In this document: piece by piece, positions 676-59,132 of the stretch
Layout: each line of letters begins with the position of its first letter
Numbering within the stretch: position 1 is the first letter of the stretch
Source: Bacteroidia bacterium
GTDB lineage: Bacteria; Bacteroidota; Bacteroidia; Bacteroidales; JAPLDU01
Assembly: GCA_026391255.1 (NCBI GenBank)
Contig: JAPLDU010000079.1
Location: forward strand, 1-64,000
DNA: 64,000 nt
Direction of reading: 5' to 3'
The notes under the pieces: generated by a model
What the model was told of the DNA's origin: nothing
What the model saw: only the letters and a program-made list of their open reading frames with translations
Database searches by the model: none
Program-made: the position numbers and the translations under genes

Positions 676-832
676 ACAACCAAACAAGAAATCACAAATC
701 TCAAAATACAAATAACAAATAAATATCATTCCATAAAATGTCAAACTCAAAATAGTTTATTTCGTATTTGAAATTTTGATATTGTTGTTTATTTGTTTTT
801 TGTGATTTATTGTTTGGAATTTTTTGCAAAAC
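676..832 (+). repeat. Dispersed A/T-rich palindromic repeat, family R1, copy A
   Basis: Begins directly after the stop codon at 675. Left arm (ATCACAAATCTCAAAATAC...) is the imperfect reverse complement of the right arm (...TTTGTTTTTTGTGATTTATT), with arms of about 45 nt. Other copies are at 6419-6610, 17241-17440, 34389-34640 and 43120-43290. No ORF is conserved in it. Confidence 0.85.
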
Positions 833-6329: not shown

Positions 6330-6418
6330 CAAAAATAAACATTGACCGCCTGGTATGGTCTGTTTAAAGAATATTGTGAATACATGTTAAATTATTAGGA
6401 GCCCACCTGGATGAGCCA

Positions 6419-6610
6419 GAACCAAACAAGAAATCACAAATCTCAAAATACAAATAACAAATAAATATCAATTAACAAAATGACAAATTCAAAACCGGTG
6501 GATCAAAGTAGTTTGTTTCGTATTTGAAATTTTAGTATTGTTTATTATTTGTTTTTTGTGATTTATTTTTTGGATTTTTTGCCAAAACTCGTCAAGATTT
6601 CAGAAATTAG
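6419..6610 (+). repeat. Dispersed palindromic repeat, family R1, copy B
   Basis: Same orientation as copy A and 90 nt after the ispG stop codon. It ends with the conserved flank CGTCAAGATTTCAGAAATTAG that is also seen, in either orientation, in copies C, D and E. It fills most of the 6330-6677 intergenic region, where nothing else but the promoter of the next gene is visible. Confidence 0.85.
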
Positions 6611-6642
6611 ATACTAGCAGCATTTTAATTAAAATAAGCTCG

Positions 6643-10761: not shown

Positions 10762-11202
10762 AATAGGCGTATTGTAATATCTTAGGGTGATTGCTTAAAT
10801 TTATGTGTAAAATTCAAAATCATGAATAATAATAAATCTGCAATTATCAAGTCCCGGAGGGACGAAATCTTTGTAGAAAGACAATCATTCGATTTGCACA
10901 AGCAGCGTAGCTGCGAAATAAATTAATGAAATTTGTAAATACATTTCAAAAATGAATAATCAAAAATGACAAATAATCTGGTTTCGCAGCTACGCTGCTT
11001 TAAGACTTTTAATAATACCCGATTCTACAAAGATTCCGCAACTACGTTGCTTCTTTTTCGAAAGTACCTTCAGGGATAACCCAATAACCGACTATGCAGC
11101 AAATATTTACTATCTTCTGATATTATGTCTGATTTGCTCAGGGAATGCTTAATTTGACCGGAGAGATTAAATCACTCTCCTGATAAAGAAATGATCCACC
11201 CA
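10762..11202. other. Intergenic region holding a REPIN-like element
   Basis: No supported ORF. Apart from the nested palindrome at 10851-11052, the rest (11053-11202) is AT-rich sequence without a recognisable signal. Confidence 0.6.
10851..11052. repeat. REPIN-like nested palindrome, family R5, copy 1
   Basis: Starts with hairpin GTCCCGGAGGGAC, then GAAATCTTTGTAGAAA. The 19-nt AAGCAGCGTAGCTGCGAAA (10900-10918) is perfectly inverted at 10982-11000. The outer TTTGTAGAA tail is inverted at ~11022-11033, and a third GC hairpin CGCAACTACGTTGC follows. Two REP-like units thus face each other. Confidence 0.75.
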
Positions 11203-12514: not shown

Positions 12515-12633
12515 AATACCAAATTATTATCAAATTTCTTTTTGATGATATGATTAATTCAATGATACAAAATTTATAATTTGATCTGCTTTTTTATGAA
12601 TTTTAAATATTAAAAGACCTAATTATCGCATTT

Positions 12634-12840
12634 GTCCCGGAGGGACATAATATCGGTAGTAATCAACAACCCGCCAGTAAATATAAGTTCCGTCAGGAAC
12701 GAAATATTGAAAATGTCATTTACGCACCATCAATTAAAATTTATGCTATTTCCTAATATGCTTGTAAAATATATCGTGCCTACGGCACTGGTTCTTCAGA
12801 GAGGGAAATCATTCTACTGATATTTTGTCCCTAACGGGAC
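12634..12840. repeat. REPIN-like nested palindrome, family R5, copy 2
   Basis: Outer arm GTCCCGGAGGGACATAATATCGGTAG (from 12634) is mirrored by CTACTGATATTTTGTCCCTAACGGGAC (ending 12840). Inner arm GTTCCGTCAGGAACGAAATATT is mirrored by AAATATATCGTGCCTACGGCAC. Each unit is a short GC hairpin followed by an A/T tail. Confidence 0.75.
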
Positions 12841-13917: not shown

Positions 13918-14187
13918 AGTCTGTCCATAATATTCAATATTTTGATTGACGAATATCGATTAACGATTTTAGATTTTTGATGTTATCATTAAATCAGATG
14001 GTTACACATACTTCATAAATCAAATATCGTTAACTTAGCGAAGCGATCTCATGAACACCTTTAAAATTAATATGTTTGTGAGTAACTTAGCGAAGCGATC
14101 TCATGAACACCTTAAGAAATATAATATATTTGTGAATAATCTTTGTTCTTAAATCATAAAAGAATGACTTTAAAGACAAACACTAAT
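13918..14187 (+). repeat. Dispersed ~270-bp element, family R3, copy 1
   Basis: It shares ordered blocks with 33190-33410: a GTCTGTC start, GATGTTATCATTAAATCAGATG followed by TTACACATACTTCA, and GACTTTAAAGACAAA near the end. It has no coding capacity. It contains a 52-bp tandem duplication whose identical core TAACTTAGCGAAGCGATCTC... (30 nt) is at 14031-14060 and 14083-14112. It occupies most of the 13909-14309 gap; the remainder carries only a CCGCC hairpin and TTCGTATGTTC repeats. Confidence 0.75.
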
Positions 14188-17207: not shown

Positions 17208-17240
17208 TAAACAGGCTGTGTACTTTTATACTTTAAGCTC

Positions 17241-17440
17241 TTATTTCTGAAATCGTGACGCGTTTTGGCAAAAAATCACAAAAAACAAATCACAAAAAAC
17301 AAATAATAAACAAGAACAAAATTTCAAATACGAAACAAACTTTTATGAATTTGTCATTTTGTTGATTGATATTTATTTGTTATTTGTATTTTGAGATTTG
17401 TGATTTCTTGTTTGGTTCTGATTTTTCCAGGTTAGGTTAT
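17241..17440 (-). repeat. Dispersed palindromic repeat, family R1, copy C
   Basis: Reverse orientation relative to copies A and B, starting 34 nt after the stop of the TMTC-like gene. It contains the conserved GACGCGTTTTGGCAAAA and CAAATACGAAACAAAC blocks and ends in GGTTCTGATTTTTCCAGGTTAGG, as copy D does. Confidence 0.85.
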
Positions 17441-33189: not shown

Positions 33190-33410
33190 GGGTCTGTCTA
33201 TAATACTATATATTTTGATTTACGAATATTGATTACTCACAACTATTATTTTATTTTTTAAGGTGTTCGTGAGATCGCTTCGCTAAGATAACGATTTTAT
33301 ATTTTTGATGTTATCATTAAATCAGATGATTACACATACTTCAAAAATATAAAAATTGTTGATCCTTGTTCTTAATTCAAAAAGATTGACTTTAAAGACA
33401 AATACTAATT
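33190..33410 (+). repeat. Dispersed ~220-bp element, family R3, copy 2
   Basis: It shares ordered blocks with 13918-14187: GTCTGTC, GATGTTATCATTAAATCAGATG, TTACACATACTTCA and GACTTTAAAGACAAA. The GCGAAGCGATCTC core is present once, in inverted orientation (33261-33287), compared with twice in copy 1. The remainder of the 33167-33514 gap is AT-rich with no other signal. Confidence 0.75.
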
Positions 33411-34342: not shown

Positions 34343-34388
34343 GACCTTTACGTTTCAGTCGATTGATATTAAAATAAATATTAGTACC

Positions 34389-34640
34389 TTATTTCTGGAA
34401 TCTTGACGCGTTTTGGCAAAATATTCCAAAAAACAAATCACAAAAAACAAATAATAAACAATTTCAAAATTTCAAATACGAAACAAACTACTTTGATTTT
34501 TCAATGATTGAAGAAATATTTTTATATAGAACGGCTTCGTTGTTTTTGAATTTATCATTTTGTTGATTCGAATTTATTTGTTATTTGTTTTTTGATATTT
34601 GTGATTTATTGTTTGGTTCTGGCTCGGCCAGGTTAGGATA
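34389..34640 (-). repeat. Dispersed palindromic repeat, family R1, copy D (with internal insertion)
   Basis: Reverse orientation. It has the conserved GACGCGTTTTGGCAAAA end and CAAATACGAAACAAACTAC block. An extra ~45 nt (TATAGAACGGCTTCGTTG core, ~34510-34553) sits in the loop, which makes this the longest copy. It lies 66 nt after the stop of nth. Confidence 0.85.
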
Positions 34641-43119: not shown

Positions 43120-43290
43120 AAACAATAAATCACAAATCTCAAAATACAAATAACAAATAAATTTCAATCAAAAAAATGACAAAGTAGTTTGTTTCGATTT
43201 GAAATTTTGATATTGTTTATTATTTGTTTTTTGTGATTTGTTTTTTGGAATTTTTTGCAAAAACGCGTCAAGATTTTAGAAAAATAATAC
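43120..43290 (+). repeat. Dispersed palindromic repeat, family R1, copy E
   Basis: Same orientation as copies A and B. It contains ATCACAAATCTCAAAATAC, the TTTGTTTTTTGTGATTTG arm and the ACGCGTCAAGATTT end. It fills most of the gap before mutA. Confidence 0.85.
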
Positions 43291-43360
43291 TAAATACCTG
43301 ACAGTCTACAGTCTAAACAACCTGATTAATCATTTGATACTTTTCTTACTCCTAAATGTC

Positions 43361-52842: not shown

Positions 52843-52985
52843 TATTTCGCCACCTACGGGGCTTAGTTTTAAAGGGTTCATTATTTCTACCGATATTAAG
52901 TCACTACGTGACTATCCCGTTAGGGATAATATATTGGTAGAAAACTGGTAACTTGAAAATCAAGTTCCGTAGGAACGAAATATTA
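52843..52985. repeat. REPIN-like element, family R5, copy 3
   Basis: Units CCTACGGGG..., TCACTACGTGACTATCCCGTTAGGGAT and TTCCGTAGGAACGAAATATT occur with ATATTGGTAGAAAA and TTTCTACCGATATT tails in opposite orientations. Confidence 0.65.
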
Positions 52986-53039
52986 AAATTTGTCTGACAA
53001 TAGTGTAATATTTTAATGATTTTAAAAATTAGAAAACCT

Positions 53040-53140
53040 ACAAGCTTAAAGCCTAAAGTAAACGAACCAGCTCCCTTTTGTTTCCCGGCATTGCATGATA
53101 AATTTTGTTTTGAAACTAAAAGCATCCGGCGAAGCCGGTG
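53040..53140. repeat. Partial copy of repeat family R4
   Basis: Blocks TAAACGAACC, GCATGATAAATTTTGTTTTGAAAC and GGCGAAGCCGGTGCAA align in order with 58870-59010; the GC-rich hairpin part is missing. Confidence 0.6.
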
Positions 53141-53230
53141 CAATCATTACCAAAATTATTCGATCTTTTTAGGGTTTCCTCACACATTCCTGCATAAAAC
53201 TTCAGCTAATTTGATCAGGCTGCAGGCAAT

Positions 53231-56157: not shown

Positions 56158-56335
56158 AAATGGGGAAAAACGCAGGATAGATATGCGTCCATATCTTGAC
56201 TTTGGTATATTTACTGAGTTGAAAGATCCTGAGAAAATCAAACAGTTACGTGTGATTTTTGATACAATTCAATGGGAAAATGATGCTGATCTGGATCCTG
56301 AATTCCTTTATAAACACGGCACTTTGGATGAATAA
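56144..56335 (+). pseudogene. DUF2442-like gene fragment, 5' truncated
   Basis: The 63-codon frame (LHFENGEKRRIDMRPYLDF, ELKDPEKIKQLRVIFDTIQW, DLDPEFLY) is the C-terminal two thirds of DUF2442, whose usual ~80-residue form has an N-terminal strand of about 15-20 residues that is missing. There is no ATG before residue 14, and the frame runs back only to a stop at 56069 inside the T9SS gene. The fragment overlaps the T9SS stop by 14 nt. It is probably a remnant; a short protein from the internal ATG (MRPYLDF) is possible. DUF2442 proteins are often found with toxin-antitoxin-like DUF4160 partners, but none is here. Confidence 0.65.
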
Positions 56336-56337
56336 TA

Positions 56338-56490
56338 ATGAATCTGGTTGCACCGGCTTCGCTGAAAGCTGGTTGTTTCAAAATAAGATCTGACATGCGA
56401 AGCCGGAATCCATGAGGGAGGGGATTTGTCTACCCCGGGTTTCGCCCGGGGCTATTCAGCTTTAAGTCCTTCGGACTTCTCTTGTTTTCA
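56338..56490 (-). repeat. Dispersed ~150-bp element, family R4, copy 1
   Basis: Its reverse complement matches 58870-59010: AAGTCCGAAGGACTT hairpin, AATAGCCCCGGGCGAAACCC..., CGGCTTCGCATG, TTTTGAAACAAC and AGCTTTCAGCGAAGC, all in order. Confidence 0.8.
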
Positions 56491-56541
56491 TCATTGGATA
56501 CCATAAATTAAGCATCTTTGGATTACAAACATTAAATGATT

Positions 56542-56749
56542 GGTCCCGTCAGGGACCGGATATCGGTAGAAAGATATCCATTCAAAGGAACCAGTGCCGT
56601 AGGTACGATATATTATCACTGAATAGGGAAATAGAATTAATTTGAATTGATTTTGTAAATATTATATTTTCAATATTTCTTTCCTGACGGAACTTATTTT
56701 TATGGGACGGTCCTTGGTTTCTATCAATATTAAATTCCTACGGTACCAA
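56542..56749. repeat. REPIN-like element, family R5, copy 4
   Basis: GGTCCCGTCAGGGACC (perfect stem), then ATATCGGTAGAAAG; GTGCCGTAGGTACGATATATT; and in reverse AATATTTCTTTCCTGACGGAAC and TTTCTATCAATATTAAATTCC, closing with CCTACGGTACC. Confidence 0.7.
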
Positions 56750-58830: not shown

Positions 58831-59132
58831 AAAATTTATTGCATTTTACAAGAAAGGGTCAAGTTTGGGCTTTGAATAAGTCCGGAGGACTTTAATCTTA
58901 ATAGCCCCGGGCGAAACCCGGGGTAAACGAACCCGCCCCTATTTGTTGTCCGGCTTCGCATGATAAATCTTGTTTTGAAACAACAAGCTTTCAGCGAAGC
59001 TGGTGCAAACATTACCGTTAACATTAAACCCTTTCAGGGTTTCTGCAAACATGCCTTCATCTTACCCTGCACTCCGTACAGGGCTATTAACATTAAATCC
59101 CTTCGGGATTATCAGAAGAAATCCTGTTATCA
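58831..59132. other. Intergenic region between convergent PspC and GH31 genes
   Basis: No gene. It consists mainly of R4 copy 2 and further short GC hairpins such as CCCTTCGGGATT and CCCTTTCAGGGTTT. Confidence 0.6.
58870..59010 (+). repeat. Dispersed ~140-bp element, family R4, copy 2
   Basis: AAGTCCGGAGGACTT hairpin, GCCCCGGG-CGAAA-CCCGGGG hairpin (58904-58923), GGCTTCGCATGATAAATC, TTTTGAAACAAC and CTTTCAGCGAAGCTGGTGCAA. The same order is seen at 56338-56490 (reverse) and, in part, at 53040-53140. Confidence 0.8.

Follow-up and report, generated by a model that had tools for sequence, protein, structure and literature searches.

Dispersed palindromic repeats in a Bacteroidota genome are best read as non-autonomous mobile elements derived from an S23-bearing parent

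S23 proteins came to light with the intervening sequences (IVSs) of 23S rRNA, described around 1990–1993. In the IVS of Coxiella burnetii a long inverted repeat holds an S23-family open reading frame (ORF) in its loop; excision by RNase III has been shown there, ORF-less or ORF-deleted variants exist, and mobility has been proposed but is unproven (PMC4990558). S23 genes also sit in CPR rRNA insertions, with a domain that is still called functionally uncharacterized (PMC11270868), and in some cas loci (PMC3936711). MITEs and non-autonomous IS derivatives are another point of comparison: their gene was deleted internally while the ends were kept, and they stand at high copy number in intergenic DNA. 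The IS200/IS605 and REP/RAYT (REPtron) systems, for their part, combine asymmetric ends and a small subterminal hairpin with the lack of a target duplication, a REP being defined as a GTAG-type tetranucleotide followed by a palindrome of 20–50 nt (PMC8266576). The repeat described here, R1, resembles each of these systems in part.

R1 was found in a window of 64,000 nucleotides (the whole stretch of DNA analysed) from a Bacteroidota metagenome-assembled genome (MAG) of 4.08 Mb in 161 contigs, where one window protein carries a T9SS sorting domain. The initial annotation had recognized five related palindromic repeats in the window, and they do form a single A/T-rich family of about 204 nt, 89–97% identical to a 204-nt consensus (CCTAACCTGGACGAGCCAGAACCAAACAAGAAATCAC...GCCAAAACGCGTCAAGATTTCAGAAATAAGATACTAA), with local alignment scores of 143–177 as against at most 30 for shuffled sequence. 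Its coordinates were approximately right, yet a few nucleotides off, and they missed the true outer ends, which are CCTAACCTGG... on the left and ...TACTAA on the right. The first copy (c1, 678–858, + strand, consensus 20–200, 89.5%) and the fifth (c5, 43120–43293, +, consensus 24–204, 95.4%) have lost the left end, while the third (c3, 17239–17436, −, 93.9%) has the standard deletion and both of its ends. The second (c2, 6405–6616, +, 96.5%) contains a 14-nt insert that is the start of an S23 ORF (AAACCGGTGGATCAAAGTAG) and represents a separate internal deletion. In the fourth (c4, 34381–34637, −, 94.1%), 53 extra nucleotides of the loop, at approximately 34491–34543 on the same strand, read as the end of a protein (ISSIIEKSK, then a stop) and are a remnant of the 3′ end of the S23 ORF of the parent described below. 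None of the window copies is within rRNA, which sets them apart from IVSs: all lie between protein genes.

The family is dispersed across the host genome, in about 150–225 copies with exact ends (CCTAACC...TACTAA). A 36-mer pattern of the left arm had 141 matches and none in a reversed control, and a 16-mer pattern of the right arm 345 matches against 121 in the reversed control. From 558 kb of stretches around copies we extracted 145 two-armed copies and 15 fragments, in which the conservation of the arms is inflated because the arm patterns helped to find the copies. With simple ORFs of at least 100 aa taken as genes, on these stretches chosen around R1 copies, 131 of the 132 copies that could be placed fall between ORFs, although coding calls cover 78% of the DNA; 13 further copies at stretch edges are outside this set. 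Such a spread over so many intergenic sites again differs from what is seen with IVSs. In the 96 two-ended copies conservation has sharp edges, at CC... and at ...TACTAA. The left end comprises 26 nt (CCTAACCTGGACRAGCCAGAACCAAA) with a small 4-bp hairpin, CTGG/CCAG, and the right end 37 nt (GCCAAAA...GRTACTAA). Many dispersed, exact-ended copies are what is expected of a MITE, but R1 has no classical terminal inverted repeats and no target-site duplication, flank pairing being near that of shuffled sequence at all lengths from 2 to 15. Within the host genome, the search for empty sites turned up only look-alikes made by tandem repeats, which were set aside. As a side observation, tandem partial left arms occur at G000:C60:9525-9764 (with a 68-nt period in C60) and at C101:979-1317, which suggests local slippage or aberrant insertion.

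The position of the window copies invites another reading, that R1 is a functional RNA element of gene 3′ ends, a terminator or an RNase III site, selected there. The initial annotation had placed every copy 0–90 nt past a stop codon, four out of five in the orientation of the adjoining gene, and had foreseen a long hairpin in the transcript. All of this was borne out: the copies lie about 2, 75, 31, 68 and 29 nt (c1 to c5) past the nearest stop codon, c3 alone lies on the opposite strand, and folding of R1 predicts a strong, long hairpin. In the genome, moreover, the copies placed between tandem genes are on the gene strand in 49 cases and against it in 24. Yet the 131 intergenic copies fall into 73 tandem, 34 convergent and 24 divergent intervals, where residual intergenic length alone would give about 76, 24 and 31 (chi-square about 5.6, 2 d.f.). 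There is thus no clear enrichment by type, little departure from mere avoidance of coding sequence, and the 24 copies between divergent genes stand at no 3′ end at all. Compensatory changes in the long hairpin were at chance level among 66 standard copies (one double change for a null mean of 0.9), in a test that is modest because alifold predicted only 17 consensus pairs, and an Rfam search of the window, rRNA included, returned no match. We therefore rejected the terminator or RNA-element reading, given the weak position bias and the lack of covariation in the long hairpin, and hold it to be highly improbable: R1 is not a dedicated gene-end signal, even if the mild orientation bias leaves room for an incidental effect on transcripts. 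The proposal that R1 was a mobile element, a 3′-end element or both thus loses its processing or termination half, by the very test put forward with it, and keeps on strong grounds its non-autonomous mobile half, in view of the sharp ends, the copy number and the two kinds of relative to which we now turn.

The first of these is a gene-bearing parent. A search of the host genome with PF05635 gave 18 S23-family genes, 16 of them above the curated cut-off. One locus, L102, is a complete element of 546 nt in which the left arm of R1 (92%) and its right arm (93%) enclose an ORF. The ORF, flanked by inverted repeats, codes in the hairpin loop for a protein of 119 aa that belongs to the S23 / 23S-rRNA-intervening-sequence family (PF05635, E=9.8e-12; TIGR02436, E=2.8e-19). 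R1 retains the start of this ORF, ATGACAAATTC, joined directly to its last codons, AAAGTAG, and is thus an L102-type element minus its gene. At least a dozen other internal deletions of the ORF were seen, two of them in the window (c2 and c4); what is left of its 5′ part, its 3′ part or both ranges from a few nucleotides to over 100. Five more S23 ORFs of the L102 type are each cut by a contig end, as expected for near-identical multicopy sequence. R1 is therefore best understood as a non-autonomous mobile element of S23 origin. The organization of the parent is that of the Coxiella IVS, and the ORF-deleted variants have their counterpart there too, but with R1 a single deleted form has been amplified, within outer ends that are common to an IS-like element. 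A same-ended parent bearing a gene is likewise what one finds with MITEs, except that the lost gene is that of S23 and not of a transposase, the transposase-like ORF being found in other genomes.

Could the S23 protein itself, with its long palindrome, be the mobility machinery, as has been proposed for 23S rRNA IVSs, S23-bearing copies moving the deleted ones in trans and the outer ends being incidental? S23 homologs exist in many phyla, with 58–88% identity; many come from MAGs, where misbinned contigs are possible, though a complete Brocadia genome and cultured strains are also among the sources. They are usually without R1 outer ends; the exception, L199, comes from a Delongbacteria MAG and is 88% identical at the protein level. 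In other genomes inverted repeats flank 47 of 79 S23 genes (about 60%) against 1 of 70 control positions, where a pair of repeats counts if it beats all 100 shuffles. A dN/dS of about 0.11–0.17 (L199 against the two complete ORFs of the host genome) shows purifying selection on the ORF between hosts. Within the same genome, six S23 genes of other subfamilies (L091, L092, L096, L100, L101 and L107) are all within inverted repeats, which for four of the genes measure 83–166 nt, a sign that this host carries several S23 palindromic elements independent of one another. One of these, L101, belongs to a palindromic family unrelated to R1 and has left two derivatives in the window, at 13936–14156 (79–92% to the L101 arms) and at 33207–33332 (78–79%), both ORF-less and both without R1 outer ends. 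It is because these derivatives share the window yet have no R1-type ends that an S23-driven mobility keeps some plausibility. Against it, the outer ends, not the palindrome, bound the amplified unit, and the same ends enclose other interiors devoid of S23 (L182, L187, L315 and L323). To our knowledge, no nuclease domain is known in S23. On balance we regard mobility driven by S23 as unlikely, and pursue the reading in which R1 is moved in trans through its ends.

These ends lead to the second relative, a multicopy IS-like element of about 1.6 kb which has R1-type outer ends and encodes a protein of about 500 aa. Compared with 60 genomes of the same order, the R1 consensus gave short matches to its first 26–29 nt, followed by different interiors. 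In genome G046, R1-type left ends run into an ORF at contig ends. In G322 the start of such an ORF is present ten times, nearly always at a contig end, preceded by CCTAACCTGGACAAGCCAGAACCAAA or its CCCAACC variant, and the C-terminal ends of the ORF are followed by GCCAA...GGTACTAA, then by differing flanks. G230 holds one complete copy, with a 501-aa ORF in an element of about 1.63 kb, and a copy on a Paraburkholderia plasmid (51% identity) shows CCTAAGCCGGACGAGCCGGAACCAAA at its left end and ...GCGACTAA at its right. Across elements the pairs of the left-end hairpin covary (C-G to G-C, T-A to C-G). The right end has a fixed length, 37 nt, throughout the nine elements listed; R1 agrees with the others at 19–27 of these 37 positions (shuffle p 0.00005–0.0023). 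Of 396 Bacteroidota genomes, 6 contain the pattern of the ends, and no reversed-control match is among those listed; the pattern was counted 76 times in the host genome and 10 times in G322, and the left-end pattern had no match in viral contigs.

The ~500-aa protein is likely to be the transposase that acts on R1 in trans. Its C-terminus is matched, weakly, by winged-helix models only, while its main part matches nothing in NCBIfam/Pfam, where no transposase, Y1_Tnp or catalytic domain was recovered. Its invariant residues, K315-Y317-K319 and R325-E327 (KxYxK...LRxET), together with the winged helix, look by eye like those of winged-helix rolling-circle endonucleases (Rep_trans / Rep-Arvir), for which tyrosine and acidic motifs are discussed (PMC13107129); no sequence match links the two. 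The structure predicted for a partial viral homolog, at pLDDT 30, is unusable. The Paraburkholderia homolog is annotated as an 'ArsR family transcriptional regulator', and annotated plasmid records give the family this name or that of 'hypothetical protein'. Distant homologs, with 21–28% identity, are seen in L308, L309, L310 and other Rhodococcus, Mycobacterium and Caballeronia plasmid matches; these actinobacterial and burkholderial plasmid proteins are called hypothetical where they are annotated. No homolog was found in the host assembly, and the 59 other genomes of the order gave one distant relative only (in G053). The host gene may have been lost, or it may have collapsed in assembly like the G046 copies. 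The S23 gene and this probable transposase, like the true ends, had escaped the initial annotation.

R1 may approach the IS200/IS605 and REP/RAYT systems in the asymmetry of its ends, the small hairpin near the left one and the lack of a target duplication. The host genome does contain four Y1_Tnp genes that could spread REP-type repeats (as RAYT, or TnpA-REP, transposases), and R1 is palindromic, intergenic and present in many copies. However, it measures 204 nt instead of 20–50, its ends carry no GTAG-type tag, the protein associated with it shows no Y1_Tnp match, and no substantial R1 match lies near any Y1 gene. The window repeats found at the flanks of Y1 genes are others (12631–12714, 56666–56749 and 10840–11053), on which ground we rejected a REP/RAYT identity for R1; that host Y1 transposases spread it is scarcely credible. 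These repeats, with those at 52915–52987 and 56537–56575, match the flanks of the RAYT-like genes L338 and L339, and for this reason are probably the true REP-type elements of this genome. A separate family of about 140–150 nt, with a GC-rich hairpin (CCGGCTTCGC...GCGAAGCYGG), is seen at 53058–53195, 56326–56478 and 58878–59060.

The explanation that we favour, and consider quite probable, is that R1 is a non-autonomous mobile element of S23-bearing parentage, moved in trans by the ~500-aa protein or a relative. In the parent, of about 546 nt, two outer ends enclose an A/T-rich palindrome with the gene of the S23 four-helix bundle in its loop. Repeated internal deletions stripped this gene, and one in-frame form (ATG ACA AAT TC/A AAG TAG) was amplified to some 100 copies or more. 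The ~500-aa protein, or a relative that is absent or has been lost, would recognize the R1 ends as a transposase, probably via the left-end hairpin folded as single-stranded DNA, and mobilize R1 in trans; copies lying after stop codons would mostly be survivors of insertion outside genes. The parent, the deletion series, the exact ends, the intergenic dispersal, the absence of target-site duplication and the ends common to the ~1.6-kb element are read directly from the sequence. The transposase role of the ~500-aa protein, its action on R1 and the S23 palindrome as nested cargo we infer, the last against the fact that S23 genes elsewhere mostly lack R1 outer ends. More tentatively, R1 may belong to transposons of an undescribed family: their ~500-aa transposase, perhaps a Rep_trans-like tyrosine nuclease, would act on single-stranded hairpin ends, and the elements would carry palindromic cargo time and again, S23 included; this we find possible rather than probable.

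A literature search, for the most part outside subscription journals, found neither dispersed S23-derived repeats nor the ~500-aa family described. The function of S23 and the mobility of S23 elements are long-standing questions (PMC4990558; PMC11270868). With a complete S23 element, its deletion series, more than 100 copies and a same-ended IS-like element at hand, both become testable. The ends of R1 also point to an IS-like family hidden under generic protein annotations and, if a transposon family with S23 cargo is indeed at work, S23 elements would gain a route of spread between phyla.
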